This document shows, piece after piece, positions 13,433-37,598 of a stretch of DNA of 64,000 nucleotides. Source of the stretch: Onthophagus taurus (taxonomy: Eukaryota > Arthropoda > Insecta > Coleoptera > Scarabaeidae); assembly GCF_036711975.1 (NCBI RefSeq), contig NC_091973.1, forward strand, positions 14,322,001 to 14,386,000, written 5' to 3'. The position numbers and the translations under genes are program-made. The stretch's first letter is position 1, and each line of letters begins with the position of its first letter. The notes beneath the pieces were generated by a model. That model was not told where the DNA came from, searched no databases, and was given only the letters and a program-made list of their open reading frames with translations.

Positions 13433-13454
13433 GTGGCGACGAGGATATTAAAGA

Positions 13455-17482: not shown

Positions 17483-17611
17483 GGAAGATTTATCTTGTAA
17501 TGTAAATCGTCCAATTCGTAAAAGGCGTCCTCCCGATCGATTAGAATATAATTAAGAGAAAATGTTAAGTTTTGTTTTATTAATTAGTGTAAATTTTTAA
17601 GGGGAAGGAAA

Positions 17612-17781
17612 TGTAGTGTATTAAAGTACAAACATGTTTAAAAAGCCTCCCCTCTACTCACGATCGTCGATCGGTGCGCAATGCCGATCGCCCCGACACT
17701 GATTAATGGGTTGTCATAAGGTTAAGTGGTATTGAATATATTATAGTAAAATATGTACGTAGTTTTTATTCATACACTACA
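17612..17781 (+). repeat. Gypsy (PolB insertion) 3' LTR
   Basis: 170 bp, identical by eye to 13,263-13,432. It is followed by the duplicated CATAT and then the PolB frame. Confidence 0.92.
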
Positions 17782-20618
17782 CATATAAATTTATTATTGG
17801 TTACAAATGATTCCGGCAATAGTCACTATTGTTGGATAAAAAATCTGTCTCGATTACTATCATCGCAAGCATCGCAGAATGGTCATGAAAAGTACATTTG
17901 CGACGGATGCTTGGTATTCTTTACGTCAGAAAATAAACTTATCCGTCATCAAAGTGACGATTGCACCAAGGTAAGGGCAATTTTACCAACAACAAATTTG
18001 AAAATAAATAAATATGGAAATGAAGAAAAGGAAAATATACTACAGTTCGAAAATTTTGAACGACAATTAAAAATACCGTTCGTGGTGTATGCAGATTTTG
18101 AAGCATTACAGAAACCGATCGCCGATGCGGAAGCAACAGAACTTAACGATGATAATTCATACTCCGTCAAATGTTTCAAACACGAACCTTATGCATTTGC
18201 ATATTATATAAAATGTTCATATGACGAATCATTGTCGAAGTTTGAAATATATCGCGGATGTAATGCTGCTCAAATTTTCATGAGCAAGTTGGAACATGAC
18301 GTTCTGAATATATACAAAAATTATTTAAGCCAACCAAAAGAAATGCTCCCATTACCACCTATAGATAGATTAATACATGAGATGCAGGATATCTGTCACA
18401 TTTGTTCGCACAAAATAAAAGAAGGTAATAAAGTGTGCGATCATGATCACCTAACTGGGTTGTATAGAGGACCCGCACATGCTGTATGTAACATCAATTA
18501 TCAATTACCAAAGTTCATACCGATATTCTTTCACAATCTTTCGAACTACGATTGTCATATGTTTGTGAAAGATATGGCATTAAAAGAAGAAGACGTGGAC
18601 GTTATAGCACAGAATAAAGAAAAGTATATATCATTTTCGAAAAAAATTATCGTAGGAGAAAACATTGACAGCAAGGGAAAGCTAAGGCGGGTTCATATGA
18701 AATTGAGATTTGTGGATTCATTTAGGTTTATGGCTTTATCGCTAGAGAAGTTGGGTTCATTTTTGGAAGACAACCAATGCGTTCAAATCAGAAAATATTT
18801 TAGGAACGAACAACAGTTTCGACTTATACGTCAGAAAGGAGTTTTTCCGTATTCCTTTGTGGATTCATTCGAAAAGCTGAATCTTACCGCTCTGCCAGAT
18901 CGAAGTAGTTTTTACAATACTTTATGCGACGATAGTATAACCGAAGAAAATTATTGTCGTGCACAAACGGTGTGGAACTTGTTTAACTGTCGCACTTTAG
19001 GCGAATATAGCGACATTTATTTAACGTCTGACGTTTTACTTTTGGCGGACGTATTTGAGAATTTCCGAACCATCTCGATGAAGTATTACTCTTTAGATCC
19101 ATGTCATTACTTCACAGCGCCGGGCTTCGGTTGGGATGCATTATTACGAATGACAGGGGTAAAATTAGAATTATTAACGGACATAGACATGTTACACTTC
19201 TTTAAAAATGGTATTCGCGGTGGATTAAGTATGTGCACTAAACGCAGTGCGAAGGCTAACAATAAATTAATGATGGAATTTGATGAAACCAAAGACCCAT
19301 CTTATATTTTGTATCTCGACGCTACGAATTTGTATGGACACGCAATGAGACGAAAATTACCGACGGGGGGATTTCGATGGCTATCAGATGAAGAGATTCA
19401 AAAGTTAGATATTTACAATACGGAAGACGATTCCGAAAAGGGTTACGTGTTCGAGGTAGATTTAGAGTATCCGGAAGCAATACATGATGAACACAACGAT
19501 TTGCCATTTTGTCCAGAACGGATTCAGGTTCAAAAAATGCAAAGTTAATAGCAAATTTGGAAAATAAAACAAAATACATCATTCATTACGTGAATCTAAA
19601 GCAGTGTATCAAGTTCGGATTGAAACTAACGAAGATTTACAGAGTATTAGAATTTAAACAATCCAACTGGATGCGGAGCTACATCGATTTGAATTCCGAT
19701 AAACGTGCGAAAGCTAAGAATGAATTTGAAAAAAATCATTACAAAGCAATGAATAACATCGCATACGGTAAGACAATGGAAAATGTGGAAAAGCGAGTGG
19801 ATATAAGACTAGTTACCCACTGGGAATGTCGTCATAAGAAACCGGGCGTGGAAGCCCTAATAGCTAAACCAAATTTTAAATCTTCGAAAATATTTTGCGA
19901 TAATTTGATAGCCGTTCAATTGAACGTCGCGGAAGTTCGTTATTGCAAACCGCTGTATGTGGGTTTCAGTATATTAGAGCTTTCGAAAACCGTAATGTAC
20001 AGCTTCTTCTATGATTACTTAAAAGTTAAATATGGAAATAACATAACACTTTTTTACACCGATACTGACTCTCTAATCCTAGAAATTACTACTCCCAATG
20101 TATATGAGGATATAAAAGAAAATATTGAATTTTTTGACACGTCCAATTATCCGTTAGAGAATATACACAATATACCTCGCGGTCGATCTGTGTTGGGAAG
20201 AATGAAAGATGAATATCCAAACAGGTGCATAACGTCATTTGTTGGAACAGGAGCTAAGGCGTACTGCATCACCTTGTTGAATGATAATGTAAAAAAGGCT
20301 AAAGGAGTAAAGAAATATGTTATAGATAAACATTTAAGCGTGACCGATTATAAACGTGTGGTTGAATGTGGCGGATCGATTCATAAAAAAATGTACATTT
20401 TTAAGTCAGAATTTCATACTATGTATACCGAATTAAAGAATAAAATTGCTGTTTCATCGTGCGATGATAAACGATACATATTACCGAACGGATGTAATAC
20501 TTTGGCGTGGGGTCATTGGTTGATGAAAATATTGAATGCGAATAAATGAATTTAATTTTAGAAAAAATTGTAAAGAATAATAATAATAATAATAATGTAT
20601 TTGTAATGTTCGATTGTT

Positions 20619-20624
20619 AATAAA
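20619..20624 (+). terminator. Candidate PolB polyadenylation signal
   Basis: AATAAA lies 70 bp after the PolB stop, in the 190-bp gap between the convergent PolB and integrase genes. A short AAT repeat precedes it. The gap holds nothing else I can identify. Confidence 0.5.
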
Positions 20625-20743
20625 GTCTTGTGAACTTTTATATAGGTCTTTATATATACGTTCTAAAGAACGTTAGCTTTTGAGATCCAAGAATTATGAG
20701 ACGGACCTAATCCTAACCATTTCACAAACACTTGATTTCCTTT

Positions 20744-21598
20744 TCACCGTAGCACTTTTTCCACCAAGTAGACGTCAGGATATTTAACTTTTTGTAATTC
20801 CTCTCGATAAAAACCACCCATAATTTTTTCATTGGATGCATCTTTGAGCAGATATGTTGTTGGGAAAGTATTACGAACAGAATGTATTGTAAACACTTCG
20901 TTAGACCAATTGGGAGTATAGTTTTTGGTGAAGGCGTGTCGATGCTTGCTCACTCTGACGTGATCACCGACATTAAATTTTTTGGTATAAGGATCGGCAA
21001 TTTTTATGTAATTATAAACAGTTTTTAACAGTGTCGGTGCGTTTCTGTTATTTACCTCGCTAGGTTTCATTCCTATCGTCCTGTGAACTTGGTTGTTATA
21101 ATCCAGAATTAATTTGGGAAGCAATTCCAACCAACGATAGTTACCTTGCATACTAAATTCTTTCCACATTTTTTCTTTTATTGTTCTATTAAACCGTTCA
21201 ACAATAGAACTCTTTAAATTGGAAAATGAACTGTAGTGATTGATGTGATATCGTGACATGAGCTTTTTAAAATCCTCATTGTAAAATTCTTTTCCGTTAT
21301 CCGTTTGCAGATTCTTCGGTATGTTTTTCCGCTTTTCCGATAGAATTGTTTCCATAGCTCGCGTAACTTCTTTGCCAGTTTTGTTTTTTAGTGGTACAGC
21401 CCATCCATACTTTGAGAAAGAATTAATAACTGTTAGAATATATTTAAAATTACCATTTGCTTTTGAATAAGGTATCATCTCCACTAAATCAGCTTGAAAT
21501 AAGTCCGTTAAACCTTTTATAATAACACGTCTGCGTTTATACTTTTTCCTCACGGACGCGTGCAACTCGTTTACGACGGACCTTTTAATATCGCTCAT
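20744..21598 (-). CDS. Polinton retroviral-type integrase (INT)
   Basis: 284 residues from ATG 21,598. It cuts the host target and joins the element's TIR ends, giving 5-6-bp duplications in this class. The rve core shows the DDE triad: first Asp in FQADLVEM (about residue 37), second in LQTDNGKEF (about 99), Glu in SSIVERFNRTIK (about 132). The C-terminal part (NVGDHVRVSKHRHAF, then WSNEVFTIHSV) looks like the SH3/chromo-type DNA-binding tail. The N-terminal HHCC zinc-binding domain seen in longer Polinton integrases is not evident, so the protein is on the short side. The ATG overlaps the end of the next gene upstream by 4 bp. No break is visible. It faces PolB tail to tail. Confidence 0.92.
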   Translation of the reverse strand: MSDIKRSVVNELHASVRKKYKRRRVIIKGLTDLFQADLVEMIPYSKANGNFKYILTVINSFSKYGWAVPLKNKTGKEVTRAMETILSEKRKNIPKNLQTDNGKEFYNEDFKKLMSRYHINHYSSFSNLKSSIVERFNRTIKEKMWKEFSMQGNYRWLELLPKLILDYNNQVHRTIGMKPSEVNNRNAPTLLKTVYNYIKIADPYTKKFNVGDHVRVSKHRHAFTKNYTPNWSNEVFTIHSVRNTFPTTYLLKDASNEKIMGGFYREELQKVKYPDVYLVEKVLR

Positions 21599-22020
21599 TT
21601 TCTGGATATTTCAATGAGCAGTTCTACCATAAATGGTTTCTTGAGTAAAGTGGTCTTCGTTGTGGGTTTGCAAACTATTTTATCTCCAAAGGAGAGAACA
21701 TTTAACTTTTTATTTGGATCGAAGATACTTACGTTAATAATCATTTCAATGTCTCCTTCAAATCGGTATTTCACTATTTCACCAATATATAAAAAGTTTA
21801 TATATTTACTTACGTAACCTAAATTTTGAATAATGTAATAATTATCCGTTGTATCCGTAGTTCCATCTCCGCTAAACGTAAGTATTGTTGGTTGTTTGAA
21901 ATATAGTTGTAAGTTTTCACGTTTATTAAAATGAGCAGCAATGTTGTGTCCGTGTACGTGTTTACCAAACTTATCGATCGTCATACTAGACGAATGTTTT
22001 CCGAACTTGCTTAAACTCAT
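21595..22020 (-). CDS. Conserved-looking Polinton protein, unknown function
   Basis: 141 residues from ATG 22,020, ending 4 bp into the integrase start. I do not recognise the family. The N-terminus has a short duplicated motif, LSKFGKHS then IDKFGKHVHGH, followed by a mostly beta-strand pattern (YYIIQNLGYVSKYINFLYIGEIV, KYRFEGDIEMIINVSIFD). No signal peptide or membrane segment. The position between integrase and the next gene suggests cotranscription with integrase. The intact frame in an otherwise damaged element suggests that this copy decayed only recently. Confidence 0.6.
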   Translation of the reverse strand: MSLSKFGKHSSSMTIDKFGKHVHGHNIAAHFNKRENLQLYFKQPTILTFSGDGTTDTTDNYYIIQNLGYVSKYINFLYIGEIVKYRFEGDIEMIINVSIFDPNKKLNVLSFGDKIVCKPTTKTTLLKKPFMVELLIEISRK

Positions 22021-22089
22021 CTGCTCTAGTTCACAAACGTCGGTGTTTTAAAACAAAAAACGTGAGAGTCGTATATTTATGATAATATT

Positions 22090-23028
22090 TTAACGTATAA
22101 TCTCGGCCTCTGTTAGCTCCGATATTATTGATGATATTTCATTGTCATGTGCAGAATGACCTGCAGTTTGCGAGGCCATCAACAAACGCAGTCTGTCGAC
22201 AAGTTCGTTGGGATCGTCCCAATACTCGTATTCGATAAGAGCCCCAGGAACGACTTGTTTTTGTAATGCACCACCGACTTTTTTCTTCGGATTCGGCCAG
22301 TATTTAGCCCAATGCACCTTGGGTTTGTTACCTTCAACGATAGGCTTAATAATATTCTGAAATTTCTCACTTTCGTCTTCAGTAGTCATACCTGCCTCTG
22401 GAATGTAATTAATGTACGGAGCATTTGAACGTAGTAAGATATCTTTGTAGTTGCGCATGTCCTGAATTGTAAATTTGCCTGGTTCGTTTTTAAATAGTAA
22501 ATCGTATAAACCAACGGTTCCCGTGTATTTGAAATTTCCAACGTGAATATCCTGATCCTCAAAGTGTACAGGGCTGATTCCAATGTAGAAACCTTCGGGA
22601 GTTTCGCGAACACCGTATAAACGATCATAATCATCTTTTAAATCTGTTGTTAAACCAACAATATACGTTCTGGGCAAAGGATGAAACTGACTCAAAGCGG
22701 CTTGTACCTCTGGGGACTCCAATCTTTCTTCTATTTCATCTTTAAGTCGTTCTATTCGATTATGTGCGTCCGAAATAAGAGCTCCGGTATCCTCGCTAGA
22801 ATCGAGGAGTTCTTCTTTTTCGCCCGGCGGAACTTCATATACTTCTTCTTCTGCATGAGCTAATGGGTCAAGAGGAGAAGACGTGGGAGAAGATACCAAC
22901 CTTTTTTCAGGAGTCGATGTAGTAAATTTTCGTCGTTGTTCTTTTAATGGAACTTTCGGTTTTCGAATAAAATATTCGGTCTCGGTTTTAGCTGGTACGT
23001 CAGAAATATCCGGCGAGTAACGTTGCAT
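22090..23028 (-). CDS. Conserved Polinton hypothetical protein (312 aa, start uncertain)
   Basis: The first ATG in frame is at 23,028 (MQRYSPDISDV), giving 312 residues. The frame is open further upstream to about 23,130, and that stretch (for example LLSIPKRSLSPKEEK) looks coding although no ATG occurs in it. A branch-like CTAAC and a CAG acceptor at 23,116 suggest that a spliced 5' exon may supply the start. The N-terminal third is acidic and Pro/Ser-rich with a helical segment (DAHNRIERLKDEIEERL). The conserved core is FYIGISPVHFEDQDIHV, GTVGLYDLLFKNEPGKF, then MRNYKDILLRSNAPYINYIP, a pattern I associate with Polinton and adintovirus hypothetical proteins. Function unknown. A structural or core protein is a guess from its place beside the ATPase. 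Confidence 0.7.
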   Translation of the reverse strand: MQRYSPDISDVPAKTETEYFIRKPKVPLKEQRRKFTTSTPEKRLVSSPTSSPLDPLAHAEEEVYEVPPGEKEELLDSSEDTGALISDAHNRIERLKDEIEERLESPEVQAALSQFHPLPRTYIVGLTTDLKDDYDRLYGVRETPEGFYIGISPVHFEDQDIHVGNFKYTGTVGLYDLLFKNEPGKFTIQDMRNYKDILLRSNAPYINYIPEAGMTTEDESEKFQNIIKPIVEGNKPKVHWAKYWPNPKKKVGGALQKQVVPGALIEYEYWDDPNELVDRLRLLMASQTAGHSAHDNEISSIISELTEAEIIR

Positions 23029-23145
23029 CTTAGATATCAACTTTTCTTCTTTTGGAGATAGACTTCGTTTTGGAATGGATAGTAAAGGCGCAGTGTCAAG
23101 TTTTGCGACAATATCCTGTAATGGCCGTTAGTGAAGTCGTTAGTT

Positions 23146-23850
23146 TTAAACTTCAATGAATTTATCAAAACCCTTACGGTAACGTCCCTTAGATACACCA
23201 CAATCTAAATCAATAACTAGGATGCCGTGTCTATTCTCCCAACAAGCATCGCTAATTTCCTTTAGCCGATGAAACTCCATATCGCTCATTATGTGATCTT
23301 CAAATACGTGTTTTAAATTTGTTAAGTCTTGTTTAAATAACACCAAAAAGTTACAATTATCGCGAACTAATTGTTTTGGAATTGCACTATAACTTTGACA
23401 AATTAGAAAGCAATCAATGTTTTTATGCCGACCATACGAAAAAAATTCCTTAATGACATTTTGACCTGTACAGGAAACATCGTCAAATACGACTACCGAA
23501 TATTCTTTCGCATCTTCCGGTCGAATGAACTCGTCTATATTAGAAAATTCATAGTAACCGCAATCTTTTATAGGTTCAATTAAACGTCTTAAAAAATCAT
23601 ACTTATTTTGGTATAACGAATTAGAGCATAAGTACAAGTTTAGGAAGCGCAACCCATTACGTGCAACTAAAAGCGATAACATAGCATTTGTTTTTCCGAC
23701 ACCTGAGGGCCCTACAATTAAACCTCGCTTACATTTTCCACCAAATAAATTGCTGTGTCTTGTAAAGTGTTCTTCGACCGAACCATTACTAAAATTTACT
23801 ATAGGCAGTGTTAGAAGTTGCGGTAAACACTTTAATTTCTCGTCGATCAT
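23146..23850 (-). CDS. Polinton genome-packaging ATPase (A32/FtsK-HerA type)
   Basis: 234 residues from ATG 23,850. Walker A is IVGPSGVGKTNA (about residues 41-52). Walker B is YSVVVFDDV (about 109-117). A sensor-type region CFLICQSYSAIPKQLVRDN follows (about 137-155). This is the short A32-like ATPase that pumps DNA into the capsid in Polintons, adintoviruses and large DNA viruses. The whole frame is intact. A TATA box and an initiator-like TCAGT lie upstream at the proper spacing, so it probably has its own promoter. Downstream, the spacer to the next ORF contains two CTAAC motifs and a CAG acceptor. Confidence 0.92.
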   Translation of the reverse strand: MIDEKLKCLPQLLTLPIVNFSNGSVEEHFTRHSNLFGGKCKRGLIVGPSGVGKTNAMLSLLVARNGLRFLNLYLCSNSLYQNKYDFLRRLIEPIKDCGYYEFSNIDEFIRPEDAKEYSVVVFDDVSCTGQNVIKEFFSYGRHKNIDCFLICQSYSAIPKQLVRDNCNFLVLFKQDLTNLKHVFEDHIMSDMEFHRLKEISDACWENRHGILVIDLDCGVSKGRYRKGFDKFIEV

Positions 23851-23890
23851 GATTCTCGTACTAAATGAATTATGACATTAACAGGATAAG

Positions 23891-23927
23891 ACTGAATAAA
23901 AATATAGCAAAAGTAACTTTATATAGA
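23891..23927 (-). promoter_or_regulatory. TATA box plus initiator for the ATPase gene
   Basis: On minus, CTATATAAAG (23,918-23,927) is followed about 31 bp later by TCAGT (23,891-23,895), the arthropod initiator core. The ATPase ATG is 43 bp further on, with a single upstream ATG (near 23,867) in between. Confidence 0.6.
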
Positions 23928-23976
23928 GACATAAAATATATTGATTTATATAAAAATAATATCAATGTAACTTAAT

Positions 23977-24092
23977 AATTAACTTAAAAATTAACTTAAA
24001 AATTAACTTAAAAATTAACTTAAAAATTAACTTAAAAATTAACTTAAAAATTAACTTAAAAATTAACTTAAAAATTAACTTAAAAATTAACT
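23977..24092. repeat. 12-bp tandem array
   Basis: Nearly perfect copies of AATTAACTTAAA, about 9.7 units, between the ATPase promoter and the end of the coiled-coil/PPPY gene. Very low GC. Confidence 0.93.
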
Positions 24093-24116
24093 TAATAAAA
24101 AGAGGAGAAGGAGTAG

Positions 24117-24483
24117 TTACCACTCCTCCTCTTCTGGATGTAATTGGTTAGCTTCTTCATAAGGCGGTGGTGCTGCTGGTGCTGCTGGTGCCGGAGTCGT
24201 TGCCGGAATCGTTGCCGGAATCGGTGAGGCTGTGGTGCAGTGGTTAATATGCATGTTGTGCACATGCACTTCGCCCCTCACCACAGCCGATTCTGACACA
24301 CTCTGCAGCTGAGAAGATAAAATTAATAACATGGAAAAAAGTATTATAAGTATAACGTACCAACTTAAATATAGCATCTAATTTTACCTCCAACGAGGCA
24401 ACTTTCTGCTCCAATTCACATAGTCTTATCATATGATTAACTCTCATATTATCCATATGATTGCCTCTCATATTATCAGTCAT
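24117..24483 (-). CDS. Spliced coiled-coil protein with PPPY motif (104 aa)
   Basis: Two minus frames are best read as one spliced gene. Exon 1 is 24,483-24,361 (41 codons, ATG start); exon 2 is 24,308-24,117. The 52-bp intron (24,309-24,360) begins GTACGT and ends TTCTCAG, phase 0. Exon 1 encodes a leucine heptad helix (LEQKVASLEVKLDAIFK) that continues into exon 2 (LQSVSESAVV). A Thr/Pro/Ala-rich linker, APPPYEEAN, and an acidic tail EEEEW follow. PPxY motifs recruit Nedd4-type ubiquitin ligases and occur in adenovirus protein VI and in many budding viruses. Read unspliced, exon 2 would start with a hydrophobic stretch that could be mistaken for a membrane anchor. The start lies just after the stop of the 333-residue ORF. 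Family not recognised. Confidence 0.6.
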
Positions 24484-24490
24484 CTTTAAG

Positions 24491-25492
24491 CTAGGAAGGG
24501 AAGTTTACGCTATTAGTAGTGAAACTAGATAAAATACATTCAGCCTTTTTAATTTCACAGGTTAATGATGCTATGGTGATGTCGAGCGATATTGTTAAAG
24601 GGTTGTTACAGCTCGACGCCAGCCCTTCTCTAAACTGTGAAAGTTCTCTCAAAGAGGTTTGCAATTGAAGAACCTTTGCATGAAGGTCTTTATAAAAATT
24701 TTGATACAAATTATTAATTTCGGCCAAAATCTCCCCTTTGGTTGTTTCTACTGCTGTACACATTGCGTTTGAAAAAAGGCTGGCAGACACATCGGAAATA
24801 TCTGAAGTAGCAGGAATATTAGCAGGAATATTAGCAGGAATATTGTCAACCCTTAAGATGTGTACTTTCGGGCTAAACGAAGGAATTTCGGTGTTAGGGA
24901 TATTTGAGTTAGTAACGGGAGCCAATGAAGCTTTAGAAGAAGAAAAAGAAGCCTTAGTAGCTTTAAGATACTTCCGGTTACTACAGTGTTGTGATACCGC
25001 CATTAAAGCAAGAGAGTCGTCGGATTTATCGGACTCGTTCTCGGTAACCACTTTCGACTGTGTCATTTCAACCTTCGACGGGGTCGCTTGTTCAACTGAC
25101 ACATACTTGCGTTGGCTACGTCGCGAATGACCACGTGCCTCCCTTCTTTCTTGTCTTTCCTCTCTATACTTTTCTGACGGTACCCACACACCTGCAGCCT
25201 TCTTCCAATGTTCACGGTTCCCCGAATTCCGACGAAGTGAAAGGCGTTTCACATTTTTATCGTCGACATTCGCGGAACCTGCGACGTTCAGAAGCGACGG
25301 ATCTTGCTGCGCATTAGATTCCACGTTAGGATCCATCGGCTGCTCATTAGGCTGCACGTTTGGATCCAGCGCCTTCTCAACAGTCGATATGTTCAACAGG
25401 TTTATGTCAAAACTGTTTAACAGGAATGACTCCTGGCTGCTGGCGAAACCGGGAGCAGTTAAATCAATTTGACTAAAACCGTCTTGAGACAT
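24491..25492 (-). CDS. Polinton hypothetical protein with basic middle and helical tail
   Basis: 333 residues from ATG 25,492 (MSQDGFSQIDL). The frame extends 8 codons further without an ATG but crosses the proposed leader intron, so I start at this ATG, which directly follows the acceptor TTTATCAAG. The N-terminal third is acidic and Asn/Pro-rich; the middle is strongly basic (EKYREERQERREARGHSRRSQRK); then a Ser-rich part with three PANI repeats; the C-terminus is long helices (EILAEINNLYQNFYKDLHAKVLQLQTSL shortened here by description: about residues 245-300). No family recognised. The basic part suggests DNA or RNA binding, perhaps a core protein. It lies downstream of an unusual multi-intron leader. 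Confidence 0.6.
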   Translation of the reverse strand: MSQDGFSQIDLTAPGFASSQESFLLNSFDINLLNISTVEKALDPNVQPNEQPMDPNVESNAQQDPSLLNVAGSANVDDKNVKRLSLRRNSGNREHWKKAAGVWVPSEKYREERQERREARGHSRRSQRKYVSVEQATPSKVEMTQSKVVTENESDKSDDSLALMAVSQHCSNRKYLKATKASFSSSKASLAPVTNSNIPNTEIPSFSPKVHILRVDNIPANIPANIPATSDISDVSASLFSNAMCTAVETTKGEILAEINNLYQNFYKDLHAKVLQLQTSLRELSQFREGLASSCNNPLTISLDITIASLTCEIKKAECILSSFTTNSVNFPS

Positions 25493-26060
25493 CTTGATAA
25501 AAAAAAATTCATACATTAATTTATTTTATTTTAATAAAAAATCATGTATACTTACATCGCTTGATGAAAAGAACGTTAAAATCTAATTGCAGTGGGTGCT
25601 GAATGATATGATGTGAATGATAAAAAATTATTGTAGATATTATGATACAAACGTTCGAATAATAAAGTTATGCTTACCAACAAAAATTAAGATTTAAAAT
25701 AGAAGGAGCTATAGGAATGAAAAAAACAGATTAGCAACAATATATGTAAAGGAAAAGAAGGCTATACTTACCAGAAAAAAGTCGCCGAGATAACGAAGTT
25801 ATCAAAACTGATCGAACTGATCAAACGCAAAATGGAAGTGATCAGTAGTAAGGTCCTGTAGGAATTGAAAAAATAAAAATAACAATTTAACATAACAAAC
25901 AAATAAACAAGTTGTACTCACAAAAACAAAGTAGAAAGAGCTGTTATGATGAAACAAAACAAGAATATTTTACATATTATATAAGCAAAGTAAAAAAGGT
26001 TACTTACCAAATAAAACACGTCAGCAAAAAAGAGCAAGCTGAAGGATATCTAGGACTGGG
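25493..26060 (-). promoter_or_regulatory. AUG-free leader with five consecutive short introns
   Basis: On minus, five consensus GT-AG introns follow one another: 26,007-25,941 (67 nt), 25,921-25,856 (66), 25,771-25,709 (63), 25,677-25,599 (79) and 25,555-25,493 (63). Donors are GTAAGTAA, GTGAGTAC, GTAAGTAT, GTAAGCAT and GTAAGTAT. Acceptors are ATAACAG, CCTACAG, CCTATAG, ATTCAG and ATCAAG. The exons between are 19, 84, 31 and 43 nt, and the last acceptor abuts the ATG of the 333-residue ORF. No ATG occurs in any exon, while several occur in introns 1, 2 and 5. The 5' end of exon 1 is not determined; no clear TATA box is seen. Confidence 0.65.
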
Positions 26061-26414
26061 AAAAAAAAATTATTTGGGGGGGGGGGGGAATTTTAGATTT
26101 CCCCCACTCCCATCCCCACTCTTCCATCTCCACTTTGGGAGGAGCCTGAGGAGGAGCATGGGAGGAGCATAGGAGGAGCTTCAATAAACAATCCTTTTCC
26201 CTTTTTCTTTTCTCTTTTTTTTTTTTTTTCTTCCTTTTCCAATTTAATACTCTTTCAATTTACAACCCAAGTCATACCAACCCAACCCAATGTATACATA
26301 CCATGTATTCATTTAGATTAACTATTTTTTCTTTTAAATTAAAACAACTTTTTACACTTTTTACAATCTTTTATTATTATTAATTTACAATCTATAACTG
26401 ACAATGTTTATATA
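26061..26414. other. Intergenic, low complexity
   Basis: A run of 13 G (about 26,076-26,088), a purine-rich GGAGGAGC repeat (about 26,138-26,182) and a long T run (about 26,215-26,230), then AT-rich sequence to the next gene. No ORF of note. It could hold the promoter of the multi-intron leader on minus and the poly(A) region of the next gene. Confidence 0.5.
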
Positions 26415-26747
26415 CTAAACCTTACATAAAGAACAATCCTTTCTTGCCGATGGTGGACCATCAATATGCGTTTCCCAATGAGGCAAATTATAATGTTCAA
26501 AACAGGGCAGCTTGCTTTGTAATCGCTCATCGTTTCTATACTTCAACGGTAATTTAAACCAAACCGCCGCCAAATCTAACGGCTTTACTTTATTGATATA
26601 ATAATCGATTGGTAAATACCATAATTCGTAGTTTTTAATATTCGCAAAAGATAAATCAGATTCGTATCTTTCCATAATATCCCAGACTTTATTAATTATA
26701 AAAGTTGAAAGTCCCAATCTGGTAACTAACCGCCAAAGACGTTCCAT
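26415..26747 (-). CDS. Small Polinton protein with Cys/His tail, unknown
   Basis: 110 residues from ATG 26,747 (MERLWRLVTRLGL). The frame is open 37 codons further upstream, but that part overlaps the previous gene and reads like noncoding, so I prefer the internal ATG. The C-terminus has CFEHYNLPHW and CSLC, a possible zinc site. An aromatic-rich middle (YELWYLPIDYYINKV) precedes it. Function unknown. It follows the 159-residue gene with the same strand and close spacing. Confidence 0.55.
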   Translation of the reverse strand: MERLWRLVTRLGLSTFIINKVWDIMERYESDLSFANIKNYELWYLPIDYYINKVKPLDLAAVWFKLPLKYRNDERLQSKLPCFEHYNLPHWETHIDGPPSARKDCSLCKV

Positions 26748-26803
26748 CTTGAACTGCTCTACCGCTACTACCCGTCTGCCTTTCTCAATTCGTTTACATA
26801 TAG

Positions 26804-27283
26804 TTATAGATGTCTGAATACGTATGAAAATAAATAAAAAACATTCGATAAGGAGCACATACTTGGGCTCTTTTTATGATAGGGACACATCGGCGCACCA
26901 ACCTCCAATTTGCATTCATTTTCCGGCAATTCTTTTACCGGTATTGTTAAAATTCTTCTTAAAAATGTAGCTTTCTCACGTCCTTTTACGTACGCTACTT
27001 TTGTCGAACGACACAAATAACAAACGATCTCATCGAAACGAGACGCAGGAACAAACCCGTCGTTCCAATCAATACAATGATGATGACTCATTAACCAATT
27101 CGCCGTATTGCGAAATTTGGTAGATAGTGAAGAAAAGCTTCGACTAGGTTGAAACACGTAATGACTTATACAATGATTACTGTCGTAAGAAGCCAGTTCC
27201 TTTGGGATAAATTCTTCATCGTTTATCGTGAAACCTTGAATGTCCAAAATAATAAAATCGCTTTGAAAAACCATAATATCCAT
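26804..27283 (-). CDS. Polinton-associated protein, unknown (DIQGF family)
   Basis: 159 residues from ATG 27,283. It shows a pattern I associate with proteins found near insect Polintons: FIILDIQGF at the N-terminus, FIPKEL, HYVFQP, a WL...HHCIDWNDG segment, VKGREKATFL, and a C-terminal C..H......C (PMCPYHKKSPSMCSL). The first Asp after a hydrophobic strand, the central His residues and the late Cys/His group could make a nuclease-like fold, but I cannot confirm this. It lies directly downstream of the capsid gene on minus. Intact. Confidence 0.55.
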   Translation of the reverse strand: MDIMVFQSDFIILDIQGFTINDEEFIPKELASYDSNHCISHYVFQPSRSFSSLSTKFRNTANWLMSHHHCIDWNDGFVPASRFDEIVCYLCRSTKVAYVKGREKATFLRRILTIPVKELPENECKLEVGAPMCPYHKKSPSMCSLSNVFYLFSYVFRHL

Positions 27284-27356
27284 AATATACCACTATATGC
27301 AAACGTTTCCTTCGATGTTTAGAGATACACTAAATGACGTTGCTTCAACAGTACCA

Positions 27357-27924
27357 CTATATTAATTGCTTAACCATTTTCGTAAGAGGCGAATACACAA
27401 ATGCTCTGTCATGCAGAATTAATGTGTAAGCTGTCGTACCCTCCGGAATTGGATTTTTCGTTGAATACTCGATTTTTATTTCTACTCCGCTTTTATGTAT
27501 TGCTTCCTGTTGATACGTGCAATCGATTCCAATTAACGACGCGTAAGTTTTAAATTCTTCCGGTGAAAACAAAGGTTCGCTTTCTTGATAGTAGTATGCT
27601 TGCTGAAATCTTGAATACATATCATACAAAATCGCATAGTGATTGTTATCAAAATCCACATTCAAATTATCGTACGGAAAACGTTCTCCATTCAAGAAAA
27701 CGGTTACGTTCTTTAAGTTTATATTATCAAATAATGCCATGTTTCCTTTAAATATACCCTTTCGATTTGTTTGAAATCCGATGATTATAAATCTAGGCGT
27801 TTCCAATTGTGGAGCAGTTTTGACGGCCCAAGATTGCTTCGTAGTTTGAGGTAATTGAGGGTACTCGTGTATTTCCCACGATCGAAAAGGAACGTGAATG
27901 TCTACGTTTCTTTCTGATAGTTTT
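27357..27924 (-). pseudogene. Polinton major capsid protein (MCP), C-terminal half
   Basis: Double-jelly-roll capsid protein, second half. From the Gypsy boundary the frame runs VPFRSWEIHEYPQLP, then KTAPQLETPRFIIIGFQTNR, FDNINLKNVTVFLNGERFP, YASLIGIDC, EIKIEYSTKNP, and ends at 27,357 with a hydrophobic C-terminus. These strand patterns are typical of Polinton/adintovirus MCPs. The N-terminal half is at 40,991-41,687. The two halves are separated by the second Gypsy element with its PLE array, and GTTTT is duplicated at the break (27,920-27,924 and 40,991-40,995). Confidence 0.85.
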
Positions 27925-28616
27925 TGTAGCGTGCTGTGGCAGCAGCTCCATTTAAAAACATAAAAATTGTATTTCATTTGTTATTTTTTTTATATTTGCA
28001 CACAATTGTTTTTGAAGCAAAACAGAACAGACGCAAAATAAAAAGTCTGTCAAAAAGTTAATTTTATAATTGTATTATTATGTTGGCTAATACCTCATAG
28101 CCACATTTGGTGACCCCGATCAAAGCAACTCGCAACCTGGTAGATTCTTCCCCCAGTCCGATTAAACCAAGTCACAACCTGAAAATTATCCCTTCACCCC
28201 GACTAAACCAGCCCGGCAAATGAGATTCAACTAAAAAATTCAAGAATCACCAATTCAAGAATTAAGAAGAACCCAAGCAGAATCCATTCAACCGATTGTG
28301 GTCCAGCGAACATACGCCCCGACGTCCCTCGCACTCTATAATCGACTAAACGTTACCGTCGTCTAATCAGACTGCGCTACAGCGCTGTAAGTACTTTCAC
28401 TTATTCACCTATTTAGAATAACAGAAAGATTAAATTAGAAATTTTATTTTTATCATCCAAATTATTGAATTAAATCCGTTATAAATTTATGTCATACAAT
28501 GACATATTTCAAAATCATACAATAAAAATAAACAAAATTTTATCATTTTTTTAAAAGTTTTTATTAAATTTTTCAATCGTAGAGTTTCTTAATAAAAATT
28601 TAAATTTTGTTTCAAT

Positions 28617-29633
28617 ATGGCGACCACAGATAACGGTGACAATTTGATGACTGACGACCTTCAAAATGTCACTGCCATTAAATTTCTACCATTTTGGTCC
28701 TCCAATCCTGATTTGTGGTTTCGGCAAATAGAGGCCCAGTTTACACTGTCAAAAATTAAAAGCGAGAAAACAAAATTCAATTATATTCTCGCGAATTTAC
28801 CAACTGATATTATTACAACCGTAGTTGATTTAATTCAATCTCCTTCGGATACAACTCCTTACTCTTCCCTTAAAAACGCTCTGATAGAAAGATTATCACT
28901 GAGCGAAGAAAAAAGGCTCGATGATATTCTTTCTGGGACTCAAATGGGAGATCAGCGTCCGTCGGAGTTTTATAGGGCTATGTCAAGTACCGTCGGAGGT
29001 TCCCAAGTAGTAAGCAACGAATTGCTTCTGAAACTTTGGAAAAGACGCTTACCTCAAGCGGTATCAGTCGCGCTTCTCACATCTGGAAAGAAGGAAGTAG
29101 CAGACCTTCTATCTATCGCCGACAAAGTCTGGGAGACGTTAAATTCCTCCACACTTTCTTCCTCATTTTCCGACTCTCAACACAACACTTTTCATCACAC
29201 CTACAATTACACCCGTGACAACAACACTACACCACGAACGACACCGCGACATGACGAGCTTTTGACGGCAATTCAAAATTTGACAGTAACTTGCCAAACA
29301 TTATTAAAATCAGTTGCCCAACAACAGCAACAACAGGACTGCGTAACGAAACGTTTGGAGAGTCAGATAAATTCTTTATCTGCACAGTTTCAAAGCAATA
29401 CACCTTCAACTACGTCAAATTATTGTAATTGCCACCAGCGTCATACCTCTCGTGAGAGATATCGTTCTCATAAAGTTCGATCAAGAAGTAATTCCAATTC
29501 AACTAATTTGAATCACGTATGTTGGTATCATCGTAATTTTGGTAAAAATGCAACGAAATGCGATGGTGCCACATGCAGTTTTTATTCCGTATTTGCAGAT
29601 AGAACCACCACCAATAATTCAAAAAACCCGTAA
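28617..29633 (+). CDS. Gypsy gag protein (MCP insertion)
   Basis: 338 residues. It has the capsid-type helical region common to arthropod Gypsy gags: PFWSSNPDLWFRQIEAQF, then KFNYILANLP, MGDQRPSEFYRAM, and LLKLWKRRLPQAV. The second half is Ser/Thr/Gln-rich and ends with a Cys/His segment (CWYHRNFGKNATKCDGATCSF) in place of a classical CCHC knuckle. Frame intact. It is separated from pol by a stop and a few bases (29,634-29,660). Confidence 0.85.
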   Translation: MATTDNGDNLMTDDLQNVTAIKFLPFWSSNPDLWFRQIEAQFTLSKIKSEKTKFNYILANLPTDIITTVVDLIQSPSDTTPYSSLKNALIERLSLSEEKRLDDILSGTQMGDQRPSEFYRAMSSTVGGSQVVSNELLLKLWKRRLPQAVSVALLTSGKKEVADLLSIADKVWETLNSSTLSSSFSDSQHNTFHHTYNYTRDNNTTPRTTPRHDELLTAIQNLTVTCQTLLKSVAQQQQQQDCVTKRLESQINSLSAQFQSNTPSTTSNYCNCHQRHTSRERYRSHKVRSRSNSNSTNLNHVCWYHRNFGKNATKCDGATCSFYSVFADRTTTNNSKNP

Positions 29634-29639
29634 AGATTC

Positions 29640-32341
29640 GAAGGAAAAAAGAAGAAATGTTTTCTAAATTCAAAATTAAGACTGATAGTCAACCTCAACT
29701 TTTGGCAAATTCATTTAATACAAGACTTTTTATATTTGATAATCAAAATAATCTAAATTTTTTAATTGATACTTTCGGTTTTACCATTTAAACTTTTTCC
29801 CAAACACAACCAAGACACCGAATCAAGCCTTTCCGCAGCTAATGGTACTGAAATTAACACTTACGGAAAAAAATTACTCACGGTTTCACTGAATTTAAGA
29901 CGAAATTTTCCATTCGTCTTCACCATTGCGAACGTTAATAAACCAATCATTGGCGCAGACTTTCTTCATAAATTCGGTATCTTGGTTGATGTTAAAAACA
30001 AACGATTAATTGATTCAAAAACAGAATTATACTCAATTGGTACCAGTATCAAAACAAATGAACCAACACCAAAACTTTTTTCTTTCGAATCCATATATAC
30101 AAGCCTTTTAAAATCATTCCCATCACTAACCTCTACACCGGATTTTTCTTTACCAGTCAAACATCAAACAACACACAAAATTATAACTAATTCTCATTTA
30201 CCGTTTTGTCGTCCTCGACGTTTAGATGTACATAAACACGCAATAGCCAAAAAGGAATTTGATCAGATGGTAGCCATGGGAATATGTCGACCCTCTTCTT
30301 CTTCAACAGCATCGCCTCTACACATGGTCCCCAAAAAGGATTCCAATGATTGGAGACCATGTGGAGATTATCGACAATTAAATAAATTTACTATTCCGGA
30401 CCCCTTCCACATATTCAGGATTTCAACTTACATTTGAATGGATGCAAAATTTTTTCAAAAGTGGATTTAGTAAGGGCATATCATCAAATTCCGGTGGAAG
30501 AAGAAGACATTCCCAAGACAGCTATCACTACTCCTTTTGGTCTTTTCGAGTTTACTCGTATGCCCTTTGGCCTCCGTAATGCTGCTCAGACCTTTCAGAG
30601 ATTCATAAATGAAGTTCTTTCGGGTCTCAACTTCTTATTCGTTTATTTAGATGACATTCTCATTGCAAGTCATAACGAAGAAGAACATTATGTACATCTC
30701 GAGAAGTTATTTGAACGGTTAAGTACAAACCAAAAACATTGAAAGAACTACAAAGATTTTTGGGCATAATTAATTTTTATCATAGATTTTTACCGAACAT
30801 TTCTAATATTTTATCACCCCTTCATAATCTTTCATCATCGCTTTATTCAATTAAACAAAAATTAATAACATCTTGGTCAGATGAACATGAAATTTCCTTC
30901 GCAACAGCTAAAGATCTTCTAACGAAATCTACCGTTCTGGCTCATCCATCTCCTCACGCTTCGCTGTCACTTGCCACAGACGCTTCTAATACAGGTATAG
31001 GAGCAGTTCTGAGCCAAATTATTGATGAAAAACCGCAACCAATAGCATTTTATTCACATAAACTTTCTCCAAGTCAAGTTAAATATTCAACGTTCGACAG
31101 AGAGCTATTGGCAATATATTCTGCCATAAAATTTTTTAATCATTTCCTACACGGAAACAATTTTACAGTTTTCACCGACCACAAACCTATAACTACGGCA
31201 ATATTTTCATCAACAGAAAAAACACCAAGACAAACCAGGTACCTAAATTACATAACACAATATACATCCGATGTGAGATACATTAAGGGAAATTCCAATA
31301 TTGTTGCAGACGCTTTGTCCAGGACAAATATTGAATCCCTAAATTTTCAGTACCCCGACACACTTACACTTTACAAAGCTCAAGTCACAGATATCGAATT
31401 GTCGAACCTACTACATAAACAATTTTCTCACACTCACACTACAACACCCTATCAGTTATTGCTACAACCCACAACGCTACCTGATATCAAATTATGGTGT
31501 GAAATATCAACGGAATCTCCGCGAATCTACATTCCGCAGCAATTTAGAGAAATAGTTATACAAAAATTTCATGGTTTATCTCACCCTTGCATTCGAGCAA
31601 CCATTCATTTAATAAAAACAAAATTCTTTTGGCCTCATATGTCGAAACAAATTCGTATTTGGACAAAATCATGTTTACAATGCCAGAAAGTTAAGATACA
31701 AAGGCATACAAAATCGCCAATTCTCAAAATCAAAGTTCCAAAAGTTCGATTTGAACACATTCACATTGATTTGATTGGCCCACTTGTTCCATCTCTTGGA
31801 TGTACTTATCTGCTCACAGTCATTGAGCGTTTCACACGGTGGCCAGAGGCTTTTCCTCTAAAAGATATCTCTGCAGCCTCTATTGCAGATACTCTTTTCA
31901 GGCATTACTTCAGCCGTTTCGGTATTCCTACCATGATCACTCACGATCAAGGACGACAATTCGAATCACTATTATTTTCAAAATTCCAATTATTTTTAGG
32001 TACTCATCAAATACACACATCTGCTTATCACCCACAAAGTAACGGTATGATTGAACGATTTCACCGTACTTTGAAATCAGCGATTATTGCTCGAGGTAAT
32101 TCTACTAGATGGAACAATGACTTGCCTTTGATTCTCCTAGGTCTCAGGTCATCCCTAAAGGAGGATTTAGGTTGCTCATCCGCTGAATTGGTTTATGGTC
32201 AGCAACTCAGATTACCAGGAGAATTTTTCTTACCTACCGAACCATCAATTGAAACTGAACCATTATTATCACGTTTAAAATCATCTTTTGCTGACATTAA
32301 ACCAGTTCAGTCAACCATACATTCCAGCCAAAAACCTTTTG
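29640..32341 (+). pseudogene. Gypsy pol, 5' and middle part, broken
   Basis: Protease start is damaged: NFLIDT near 29,765 is followed at once by a deletion that removes the catalytic Gly and shifts frame into ILSVLPFKLFP. RT begins about 30,190 (RPRRLDVHKHAIAKKEFDQM, then WRPCGDYRQLN). A frameshift follows at about 30,420, coding resumes with [12 protein letters not shown] and [11 protein letters not shown] (about 30,640), and an internal deletion of roughly 40 codons falls at about 30,735 before ELQRFLGIINF. RNase H (LATDASNTGIGAVLS), HHCC region and integrase (HIDLIGPL, THDQGRQFES, SNGMIERFHR) follow without a break to the PLE at 32,341. Confidence 0.88.
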
Positions 32342-32398
32342 GACGAGTCGATTGTTCCAGGATAGGATCGTGATAAAAAATTTACGCAATTATTTTTT

Positions 32399-32442
32399 CA
32401 ATGCCAATATTTCGCAAATTATTGTTGCTTCATCAGGGCTTG
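32399..32442 (-). ncRNA. Hammerhead-like motif in PLE terminal repeat (left outer)
   Basis: On minus: CAAGCC, CUGAUGA, stem II GCAA/UUGC, GAAA, AUAUU-type short stem III region with cleavage after AUU, then GGCAUUG, which closes stem I with one bulged A. The same motif occurs in the other three terminal repeats of the array (35,303-35,346, 37,440-37,483, 40,352-40,395). Confidence 0.55.
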
Positions 32443-32706
32443 AGCATTTACTACAAACAAAACCAATAGTAACAGTAAGAAATTACAAAAACAATAAAAC
32501 TTACAATTGCCAGGAAAAAGGCGAAAAAACAGAGAAATCAAACGTAAAACTCGGCATCGAAAAACACGTGTGAGAAGTCGTTAAAAACAACCTGTGGCAT
32601 AAGCGCCTGCGTACGAACGTTACAAGTTAAATCGACAACTTCACGTGAGGCGGGAAGCGCGAAAAATTTAAAATTTAAAAATAAAATTAAAAAAGTAAAA
32701 AAATTT

Positions 32707-35187
32707 TTAAGTTGATTTGTACATTTCGAAAACCAGCGAATAAATACTACTCAAAGCGTCTATATCTGTCCTAAAATTAATCGTGTTTGGTTGGGTAGAT
32801 ATGTGGAACATTTCCAAAAATAATCTGTTGTGATAATTAGATTCCCTGTCCAAAATTTTAACTTCATCAAAGTTGAAAGGGTGGTCATTGTCAAGGCAAT
32901 GTTGTGCCAAAGCACAACCACGCTTCGAAACTCTAATATCGCTTTTGTGTTTACTAAGACGTTTTTTAAGCCATTGACATGTATGTCCCACATATCTACC
33001 CCCGCACAAGGAGCACGGTACAACATAGATAACATTTGACTGGTACTCCAACGGAGTCTGGTCCTTAAGTTTAGAAAACACCGTAGACAGTTTTGACGGG
33101 TAATGTTCGATATATTTAATATCATTATTGGGGATATTACTTTTAAACATAGTGATCAGTTTCTGTGTAAGTTCAGGTATATAAGTAATTTTCTTATAAG
33201 TAAACGGATTGTTGTCTGTGTTTGACTGAAGGTCCAAATTTTGGTTTGATGGTGAAGAACTAAAGAGCAATTTGTTTAAAAGTTTGGAAGGGTAATTATT
33301 GATCATAAAAATTTCTTTGAGTTTGTTGAGGTTGGTGTTGACCCACTGCGGTTCACAGATCTTCGTAATTCTATATTTCATGGCCATGACCGTATTAATT
33401 TTGTGTTTAATTTTGTGGAAGGATGAGAAATGGATATACCTCCCCGAGTACGTCGGTTTGGTATACCAGTCAAAAGAAATCTGGTTACTGTCATTTCTTA
33501 TAACTTTAGTGTCCAAAAATGGTACATACTTATTGGTTTCTAGTTCTATAGTGAATTGAATGTGCCTGTTGAAACTATTAAAAAGGGACAAAACCCTATC
33601 CTGGGAACCTTCGGGTATAGCTAAAATGATATCGTCAACATATTTCTTAATAAACGGCAAATGAAAATCCAATTGAGGTATAATCATATCTAGTGTATAG
33701 TCCATTACTATTTGCGCTAAGATAGGGGAGATTGGAGATCCCATGGGAGTGCCAAAAACCTGCTTATAGGTTTTTCCGTTAAAAGTGAAGACAGTGTTAT
33801 TGAATACAGTTGAAAGGCTTCTTAGGAAGAGACCCTGATCCATCGAGAAATGCTCCTGTACGAAATGCCATCTTTCCTTGATTATATTCACAACCAGTTC
33901 TATAGGGATGTTAGTGAAAAGACTGACTACATCTAGTGAAACCACCACAAAATGAGGGGGTAACTGTAGTCCTCTTAGTTCATTTACAAAGTCAAAAGTG
34001 TTCTTCACATTATAATCATTTCTGAAGTTGAAGGAAGATGTTAAAATTGATGACATCCACGTGGCAACACCATGCGATGCAGACCCCACAGCAGAAATGA
34101 TGGGTCTTAGAGGTAAATTAACTTTATGGATTTTGGGTAGGAAATATGCTTTGGAAACGATAGAGTTGTTATTGATAAGTTTCTTTAGTTCAGCTTCACT
34201 GATGTAATTGGCATTAAACAAATCTTTAATCATACCATTGATCTTGGTTTGGGTAATACCCGCAAGGTCTTTATTGCCTAGTTGTAAATAAGTGGTTCCA
34301 TCCCTGAGCATATCCTCCGCTTTATCTATGTATTGTTTTTTGTCCATCAAAACTGTTGTTGAGCCCTTGTCGGCTTTCGTGACGATGATGTTAGGGTTTT
34401 CTTTGAGAAATTTTTTCGTTTCATGCTTCATACGTATCAAGTGAGCTTCCATACCCGTGGGGAAAACTTCCGAGGTTAAATAATTGGTAAGAATGTTGGT
34501 GGCTTTTGCTCTAATTAAGTTCTTTTTATTACTAGGACAAGAAGAGATTATATTTTCAATTTCCATCAACAAGGTTTTCGAGCTAGCCTTCTTGTTTAAC
34601 TCTGGATCCACAAATTTGGGGCCCAACGACAACAGGATCCTGACACTCTCAGGGATCTCCACCTCTGTGGTGTTAACTAACCACTTATCAACATTGTCAG
34701 AGTTGAAATTAGCTTTAAAATCTTTAATTATATCTCTATTTAAGTTATCAAACTTCTTTACATTTAATTTTTTGACATTATTGTAAATTTTATTAAAGGT
34801 AACATGAACATTATCATTAAATGTCAAATAAATATTATGAGGTAAAACTTTTTTTATATTTTCTAACAATTTTTCAGTTAAATTAGTTAAATTATTGAGT
34901 TTATCTATTGTGATTTTAATTTCAAAACCTAACGTGCGTGTTGCTAACCTTTTACTGAAGGTTCCAATTTTTTGTAGTAGGGAACCTGCCGCACCATCCA
35001 TCAAACCGCAAAGGTTTTTTGATCCGTCGGAGATGTGTCTGGGAACGATACCGTGCTTTCTACATCTGATAAGGAAGGTTAATCTGTTTTTCAATTTCGC
35101 CATTTTGATGTTGTTGTTGGAGATGGTCTTCATGTCCATCTTGATTTTGTGACCATAAGATCGTTGAATGTCGTCGTAAAAACCCAT
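32707..35187 (-). CDS. Penelope-like RT/GIY-YIG protein, intact (left copy)
   Basis: 826 residues from the first ATG (35,187, MGFYDDIQRSYG); the frame is open 19 codons upstream without ATG. A basic N-terminal region is followed by KADKGSTTVLMD (about 270), FLPKIHKVNLPLRPIIS (about 335), VVSLDVVSLFTNIP (RT motif A), GTPMGSPISPILAQ (motif B), KKYVDDIILA (motif C, about 516), FLDTKV, then the C-terminal GIY-YIG endonuclease (VIYVVPCSLCGGRYVGHT, about 718) with KRLSKHKSDI and the conserved Asn-containing tail. This is the standard PLE layout. It copies the element RNA at chromosomal breaks. It differs from the right copy (37,599-40,079) at only a few residues (for example ILDRE versus IFDRE). 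Confidence 0.93.
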   Translation of the reverse strand: MGFYDDIQRSYGHKIKMDMKTISNNNIKMAKLKNRLTFLIRCRKHGIVPRHISDGSKNLCGLMDGAAGSLLQKIGTFSKRLATRTLGFEIKITIDKLNNLTNLTEKLLENIKKVLPHNIYLTFNDNVHVTFNKIYNNVKKLNVKKFDNLNRDIIKDFKANFNSDNVDKWLVNTTEVEIPESVRILLSLGPKFVDPELNKKASSKTLLMEIENIISSCPSNKKNLIRAKATNILTNYLTSEVFPTGMEAHLIRMKHETKKFLKENPNIIVTKADKGSTTVLMDKKQYIDKAEDMLRDGTTYLQLGNKDLAGITQTKINGMIKDLFNANYISEAELKKLINNNSIVSKAYFLPKIHKVNLPLRPIISAVGSASHGVATWMSSILTSSFNFRNDYNVKNTFDFVNELRGLQLPPHFVVVSLDVVSLFTNIPIELVVNIIKERWHFVQEHFSMDQGLFLRSLSTVFNNTVFTFNGKTYKQVFGTPMGSPISPILAQIVMDYTLDMIIPQLDFHLPFIKKYVDDIILAIPEGSQDRVLSLFNSFNRHIQFTIELETNKYVPFLDTKVIRNDSNQISFDWYTKPTYSGRYIHFSSFHKIKHKINTVMAMKYRITKICEPQWVNTNLNKLKEIFMINNYPSKLLNKLLFSSSPSNQNLDLQSNTDNNPFTYKKITYIPELTQKLITMFKSNIPNNDIKYIEHYPSKLSTVFSKLKDQTPLEYQSNVIYVVPCSLCGGRYVGHTCQWLKKRLSKHKSDIRVSKRGCALAQHCLDNDHPFNFDEVKILDRESNYHNRLFLEMFHISTQPNTINFRTDIDALSSIYSLVFEMYKST

Positions 35188-35302
35188 ATACCTGAGAGAA
35201 TATACAGAAACAAGGAGATTGTTGTTCAATCCCGTTAGCAACAAGGACGAGTCGATTGTTCCAGGATAGGATCGTGATAAAAAATTTACGCAATTATTTT
35301 TT

Positions 35303-35346
35303 CAATGCCAATATTTCGCAAACTATTGTTGCTTCATCAGGGCTTG
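35303..35346 (-). ncRNA. Hammerhead-like motif in PLE terminal repeat (left inner)
   Basis: Same structure as at 32,399-32,442, with a G for A change in the stem II loop region (CAAUAGU instead of CAAUAAU). It lies between the full and truncated minus copies. Confidence 0.55.
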
Positions 35347-35622
35347 AGCATTTACTACAAACAAAACCAATAGTAACAGTAAGAAATTACAAAAACAATA
35401 AAACTTACAATTGCCAGGAAAAAGGCGAAAAAACAGAGAAATCAAACGTAAAACTCGGCATCGAAAAACACGTGTGAGAAGTCGTTAAAAACAACCTGTG
35501 GCATAAGCGCCTGCGTACGAACGTTAGTTCGCTAGTTAAATCGACAACTTCACGTGAGGCGGGAAGCGCGAAAAATTTAAAATTTTAAATTTAAAAATAA
35601 AATTAAAAAAGTAAAAAAATTT

Positions 35623-37124: not shown

Positions 37125-37439
37125 ATTTATTCGCTGGTTTTCGAAATGTACAAATCAACTTAAAAATTTTTTTACTTTTTTAATTTTATTTTTAAATTTT
37201 AAATTTTAAATTTTTCGCGCTTCCCGCCTCACGTGAAGTTGTCGATTTAACTAGCGAACTAACGTTCGTACACAGGCGCTTATGCCACAGGTTGTTTTTA
37301 ACGACTTCTCACACGTGTTTTTCGATGCCGAGTTTTACGTTTGATTTCTCTGTTTTTTCGCCTTTTTCCTGGCAATTGTAAGTTTTATTGTTTTTGTAAT
37401 TTCTTACTGTTACTATTGGTTTTGTTTGTAGTAAATGCT

Positions 37440-37483
37440 CAAGCCCTGATGAAGCAACAATAGTTTGCGAAATATTGGCATTG
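37440..37483 (+). ncRNA. Hammerhead-like motif in PLE terminal repeat (right inner)
   Basis: CUGAUGA at 37,446-37,452 and GAAA at 37,469-37,472, with stem I CAAGCC/GGC(A)UUG and stem II GCAA/UUGC. It precedes the plus-strand full ORF. Confidence 0.55.
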
Positions 37484-37598
37484 AAAAAATAATTGCGTAA
37501 ATTTTTTATCACGATCCTATCCTGGAACAATCGACTCGTCCTTGTTGCTAACGGGATTGAACAACAATCTCCTTGTTTCTGTATATTCTCTCAGGTAT

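Follow-up and report, generated by a model that had tools for sequence, protein, structure and literature searches.

Polintons, also called Mavericks, are proposed kin of the adenoviruses, and an integrase, an ATPase and a capsid protein are among their core genes; to our knowledge, little is known of how Polinton genes are expressed. Adenovirus leader introns are long. Transcription from the adenovirus major late promoter starts 26 nt past the last A of the TATA box, and the tripartite leader measures 188-203 nt, with exons of 41, 72 and 75-90 nt and about 51-63% GC (PMC5429599). Vertebrate Mavericks carry inverted repeats and 6-bp duplications, and no introns were observed in the genes of intact vertebrate Mavericks/Polintons (PMC8097293). 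What stands out in the beetle Onthophagus taurus, as new here and unlike the vertebrate elements reported to be intronless, is a predicted multi-intron 5' leader in a Polinton. Our search of the open literature, with subscription papers mostly outside its range, found no description of such a leader among the titles and abstract openings listed.

The window (the whole 64,000-nt stretch of DNA that was analysed) holds a Polinton copy that is heavily interrupted by retroelements (Table 1). Its inverted repeats pair 11478-11744 with 45968-46234 and, together with neighbouring pairs, extend over 11478-12100 and 45648-46234, long repeats as expected of a Polinton/Maverick. The flanks of four relatives were read: their repeat ends lie 17.1-17.6 kb apart and all four have perfect 6-bp target site duplications, again as in Polintons/Mavericks, while the window copy's own flanks, compared for such a duplication, read CATATC and TAAATT and do not match. 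Pfam identifies a retrovirus-like integrase (PF00665, E 6e-12), an A32/FtsK-HerA packaging ATPase (PF04665, E 1e-8) and a double jelly roll major capsid protein in two pieces (PF21738, E 1e-59 and 7e-33), the capsid genes lying upstream of the leader, and the element also encodes a PLA2-like protein. A Pfam search of the element for protein-primed DNA polymerase B gave no polymerase match; a TDTDS motif in the ORF at 19509-20549 and an endonuclease VII-like match would fit such a polymerase. The ORF at 22020-21595 (minus strand) has a stop codon that overlaps the integrase start (ATGA, 21595-21600), as in termination-reinitiation.

The initial annotation placed an AUG-free leader of five consecutive GT-AG introns of 63-79 nt, with exons of 19-84 nt, directly upstream of the 333-residue ORF333. 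The introns are indeed there, at 26050-25493 on the minus strand and ending at the ATG of ORF333 (67, 66, 63, 79 and 63 nt), and separate internal exons of 19, 84, 31 and 43 nt; as claimed, every donor is GTRAGY, every acceptor ends in YAG or AAG, and the last one adjoins the ATG at 25492. Six ATGs start within 26060-25493 (at 25975, 25893, 25557, 25545, 25516 and 25512). The claim that all of them are intronic stands for five; the one at 25557 spans the exon 7 donor and would be lost on splicing. Nor does the leader begin where it had been thought to, because its apparent first exon is exon 3 of a longer structure, in a copy without the promoter-like site and exons 1-2.

Table 1. Features of the Polinton copy in the window, numbered from the first nucleotide of the window
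Feature	Coordinates	Strand	Remarks
Polinton copy, heavily retroelement-interrupted	11483..46229	.	Terminal inverted repeats starting AGTAGTATAG; ends at 11483 and 46229
ATPase-gene promoter-like site	23893..23925	-	TATA-like TATATAAAG from 23925; 32 nt on, A of TTCAGTC (23893)
ORF-S	24117..24490	-	ATG at 24483; acceptor CTTCCTAG reaches 24491, final base of the ORF333 stop
ORF-S coding intron, 52 nt	24309..24360	-	Conserved protein on both sides
ORF333, leader-carrying gene	24491..25492	-	dN/dS 0.47-0.48 against three second-subfamily copies
Leader intron 7, 63 nt	25493..25555	-	GTAAGT..AAG, acceptor adjoins ATG
Leader exon 7, 43 nt	25556..25598	-	
Leader intron 6, 79 nt	25599..25677	-	GTAAGC..CAG
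Leader exon 6, 31 nt	25678..25708	-	
Leader intron 5, 63 nt	25709..25771	-	GTAAGT..TAG
Leader exon 5, 84 nt	25772..25855	-	
Leader intron 4, 66 nt	25856..25921	-	GTGAGT..CAG
Leader exon 4, 19 nt	25922..25940	-	
Leader intron 3, 67 nt	25941..26007	-	GTAAGT..CAG
Leader exon 3	26008..26049	-	Preceding acceptor CCTAG ends at 26050
Poly-C point, ~300 bp of other copies missing (GC boxes, TATA, initiator, leader exons 1-2)	26076..26088	-	Alignment with L006, L003, L009, L032
65-nt intron before ORF299	45312..45376	-	Removal joins AACGA to TGG, giving ATG

The longer structure is found in other copies. Positions 26200-24491, used as a query against the 290.8-Mb assembly (33 contigs), match at about 40 places (40 of 105 candidates scored), the long matches being 78-98% identical, and the leader alignment contains 35 distinct rows. 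At the poly-C run, intact copies have about 300 bp of extra sequence consisting of GC boxes, TATAAGAAGG, an initiator-like GTCACTT and two more exons with their introns; the distance from the TATA to the A of the initiator is 32 nt. Exact TATAAGAAGG occurs in 23 of the 35 rows, and 21 of those 23 have GTCACTT at the start site. Judged by this alignment, the window copy is truncated and has lost the promoter-like site and the first two leader exons. In the intact copy L006, the predicted exons measure 29, 26, 47, 19, 84, 31 and 43 nt, a U-rich and AUG-free total of 279 nt, and the introns 62, 65, 67, 66, 63, 79 and 64 nt, with GTRAGY at all seven donors and a branch-like CTAAT 26 nt from the end of intron 5. 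Donor 1 is held by 26 of the 35 rows and GTRAGY by 26, 24, 27, 30, 33, 34 and 31 at donors 1-7, where the misses include rows without the region; acceptor 7 is ATCAAG in every row. Exons are ATG-free in 25 of the 26 full leaders, against an average of 6.6 ATGs in the introns. Single copies have broken sites, such as GCAAGT or GTTAAT at donor 7, which is expected because the copies are dead. The predicted leader RNA is less stably folded than shuffles (z = 1.14). As far as sequence anatomy goes, these copies have a TATA promoter followed by a series of short non-coding exons. Retro-processed copies were considered as proof of splicing and set aside: a joined-exon query returned essentially single-exon matches and no intronless genomic copy spanning several junctions among those listed (40 of 83 candidates scored). 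The same search found a few further places with leader exons, for example C10:15434353.

To see whether the splice sites had been under selection, we took the first six and last three bases of each intron as splice positions, compared them with intron interiors and exons, and took the private changes of single copies to reflect decay after insertion. Private changes fall on splice positions and interiors about equally (7/63 and 42/403). Fixed differences between the main group and the subfamily L031-L034, in contrast, number 1/45 at splice positions against 70/294 in interiors (Fisher p = 0.00027) and 30/177 in exons, in a test that comprises one split between subfamilies and introns 3-7 only. 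It is limited to these introns because L032, a subfamily 2 copy compared by eye, is nearly identical to L006 from the promoter to exon 3 and about 20% different downstream, a mosaic that points to recombination. The lone fixed splice difference is at acceptor 6, where exon 7 of L031-L034 is longer and the alignment is uncertain. Evenly spread private changes, combined with fixed changes that spare the splice sites, indicate that these sites were selected while the elements were active. On the basis of this single split, selection seems to have preserved the splice sites as the neighbouring sequence diverged. Exons and introns drifted nearly equally, which suggests that being spliced matters more than the sequence of the leader. 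One copy, L022, has a subfamily 1 leader joined with a subfamily 2 ORF-S. Duplication of modules throughout the family A leader seemed strong at first and was rejected, since it mostly disappeared without the splice motifs; what likeness remains is weak (2/2000 for the best of 21 pairs tested).

A similar arrangement exists in a second Polinton family. Matches to the ATPase group by identity to the window protein at about 85-100%, 61-62% and 48-50% (150 of 327 candidates scored). In family B (L071, 62% ATPase), an AUG-free leader stands before the gene upstream of the ATPase, with one ORF between. Its TATA-like site and initiator are 30 nt apart, its predicted exons before the ORF are ATG-free, and its introns of 60, 60 and 65 nt have GTRAGY donors; the leader stretch is 99-100% identical at all 40 scored places (of 60 candidates), and the first ATG past it is where the NCBI protein P0008 begins. 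Family B has the same plan as the window family, namely a promoter-like start, an AUG-free leader and GTRAGY donors before a gene upstream of the ATPase, but differs in its three introns, its unrelated leader sequence and a 141-bp tandem exon-intron duplication, 95% identical, that contains two of the introns. By BLASTP, its leader-carrying protein has no significant likeness to ORF333. That protein has a DPPLY motif. The family is very uniform, with 64 of the 150 scored ATPase matches at 61-62% and 40 with the same score (counted by eye). In families C (L072, 50%) and E (L081, 49%), no leader was seen by eye beside the ATPase in the 3.0 kb and 0.55 kb read, and the neighbours of the ATPase run the other way. 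No viral contigs with a related ATPase were found.

Another feature of these elements may concern translation. The ORF at 43051-42665, a candidate adenovirus-like cysteine protease, has no significant Pfam match, and its sequence and place suggest a protease. Both in the window (43051-42665, minus strand) and in family C (L072, 713-773, plus strand), it overlaps the PLA2-like ORF in the -1 frame, and its likely N-terminus is not preceded by an ATG. Within the overlap there is an in-frame A AAA AAC (43048-43042) in the window and a T TTT TTA in family C, and the same T-run was found in family E (L081). We suggest that a -1 ribosomal frameshift is the likely reading of this overlap. RNA folding downstream of the candidate site is not exceptional. 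In a preprint on related viruses, sites of this kind were predicted with a program (PMC11071296).

The gene behind the leader is, as judged by its dN/dS of 0.47-0.48, evolving under constraint. The structure model of ORF333 is of low confidence and mostly disordered, with C-terminal helices only; its matches are NCBI proteins of O. taurus, with no homologue outside Onthophagus among the 7 matches. One NCBI model, P0001, starts within predicted intron 7 (MYESFFIK, then MSQ), so this model retains intron 7 or starts inside it. ORF-S follows, with the acceptor CTTCCTAG 8 nt before its ATG. The NCBI model P0007 takes this acceptor, at the ORF333 stop, and removes a 54-nt coding intron from ORF-S, in a subfamily other than that with the 52-nt form; in the 63 matches examined, the 52-nt form is present in 29 and the 54-nt form in 24, while 10 have neither. 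However, the donor used by P0007 is inside ORF333 rather than at exon 7, and the model may simply skip the stop codon of a broken copy, as L032 has a TGA exactly there. The C-terminal part of ORF-S (24308-24117, minus strand) has PPPY near its end and an acidic tail closing in W.

Another case is ORF299 (45311-44413, minus strand, plus one upstream start-codon base), which has its own TATA-like site and no ATG at its contiguous start. The NCBI protein P0009 begins exactly at the spliced start, MATRPNPKC. The contiguous codon string ATG-GCN-ACN-MGN-CCN-AAY-CCN-AAR-TGY does not occur in the assembly, whereas the intron end, TTTAG followed by TGGCAACC, occurs 59 times, so the P0009 model must be spliced there. 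Together, P0009, a model made from RNA reads or by prediction, and P0007 lend independent support to predicted splicing in these elements. The structure model of ORF299 contains two beta4-alpha units (mean pLDDT 53), human PURA is the solved structure that it matches best (Foldseek E 4e-4), and on this model the protein is perhaps a single-strand nucleic acid binding protein. A firefly relative, P0012, ends like ORF-S (APPPY...ESEW).

A multi-intron AUG-free leader is, at the level of sequence, well supported by its structure, its copy number, the selection on its splice sites and the second family. We consider it probable that the window retains a damaged 3' portion of a Polinton gene's 5' UTR, that full copies are spliced from the TATA/initiator to ORF333, and that splicing licenses export and translation. 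From the anatomy and the pattern of selection that we observe, we infer that in full-leader copies RNA polymerase II would initiate at the TATA/initiator and that seven minimal introns would then be excised by the host spliceosome, leaving a 279-nt, U-rich, weakly structured and AUG-free leader joined to the ATG of ORF333. Because the introns hold AUGs (seven in L006), unspliced RNA should translate poorly. In our view, splicing would be what licenses the ORF333 mRNA to be exported and translated efficiently. ORF-S would be obtained through a second acceptor, located at the ORF333 stop. Local duplication of exon-intron units is, we hypothesize, how these leaders lengthen; the evidence for it is clear in family B and only suggestive in family A.

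It is extremely improbable that GT and AG motifs fell into this array by chance within an AT-rich spacer. Ts abound in the region, as do acceptors (19 pass our rule in L006), yet the 7 donors of L006 compare with an expectation of 0.33, and the antisense strand of its leader has no donor that passes. Under a chain rule that demands a GTRAGY donor, a pyrimidine-rich AG acceptor, introns of 50-100 nt and exons of 10-120 nt, the L006 leader forms a chain of seven introns, whereas 2000 dinucleotide shuffles gave chains of 0 (1606), 1 (383), 2 (10) and 3 (1). The window copy reaches five against at most two in 2000 shuffles, which bears out the low chance that the initial annotation had assigned to five alternating sites, and among 508 tiles of 748 nt on both window strands only two, both over the leader, exceed a chain of two. 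Taken alone, the absence of AUG is weak evidence (0 observed, against 2.3 predicted by shuffles; P = 0.07). Provided that the alignment is right, chance motifs are rejected by the chain test and by the fixed-difference test.

A less improbable alternative, to which we give appreciable though minority credence, is that the introns are real and spliced but useless, having arisen by chance duplication, with sites kept only since failed splicing leaves AUGs in the RNA. It has the same anatomy as our preferred explanation and differs on benefit only; that exons are hardly better kept than intron interiors, that duplication is plain in family B, and that AUGs reside in introns all accord with it. 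Less easily accommodated are two families with unrelated leaders before the pre-ATPase gene and two others with none beside the ATPase (by eye, in the 50% and 49% groups). The initial annotation instead likened the leader to that of adenovirus late mRNAs, and the likeness extends no further than the plan (a TATA and initiator, several short non-coding exons, strong donors). An adenovirus-type leader, with exon 7 alternately spliced to ORF333, ORF-S and genes further downstream, is in our estimation quite unlikely: ORF-S does have the good acceptor used by P0007, though with a donor inside ORF333 and perhaps only to skip a stop codon in a broken copy, but the ATPase comes with a separate TATA and initiator-like site, and the leader is itself downstream of the capsid genes. 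We do not file the leader under the adenovirus type, given the separate TATA-like sites of the ATPase and ORF299, the position of the capsid genes, and a sharing among many genes that is only a candidate; among the ORFs just downstream, it could be carried by ORF333 and perhaps ORF-S. We regard it as very unlikely that a host gene was the source of a captured promoter and leader. GTRAGY donors and introns of this size do fit insect genes, and the mosaic of L032 implies that parts move by recombination, but the scored places (40 of 105 candidates) match ORF333 or adjoin such a match, and the family B leader has the same plan in an unrelated sequence. On the most far-reaching reading, some insect Polintons would run an adenovirus-like late programme in which a strong TATA promoter yields a multi-intron leader and splicing of it to alternative acceptors determines the proteins produced; new leaders would continually arise and lengthen through tandem duplication of exon-intron units, with selection for being spliced. 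We think this broader scheme unlikely.

If multi-intron leaders are conserved in two Polinton families of a single beetle, these elements would be shown to rely on the host spliceosome, and the leaders would provide a marker of past activity. It would also become possible to test for a single ancient origin of spliced leaders in this lineage against repeated origins, and leader growth by exon-intron duplication within a mobile element would be a ready system for studying how introns multiply.

Compared with the systems described so far, the Polinton leader resembles the adenovirus tripartite leader in that a TATA is followed shortly downstream by the start site, in its several small non-coding exons and in its similar length (279 nt against 188-203 nt). 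It differs in having seven exons rather than three, minimal introns, one or two genes in place of many late genes, and a U-rich sequence in place of one with about 51-63% GC. Vertebrate Mavericks share with the beetle Polintons their inverted repeats and 6-bp duplications, and differ from them in their genes, which are reported to lack introns in intact elements.
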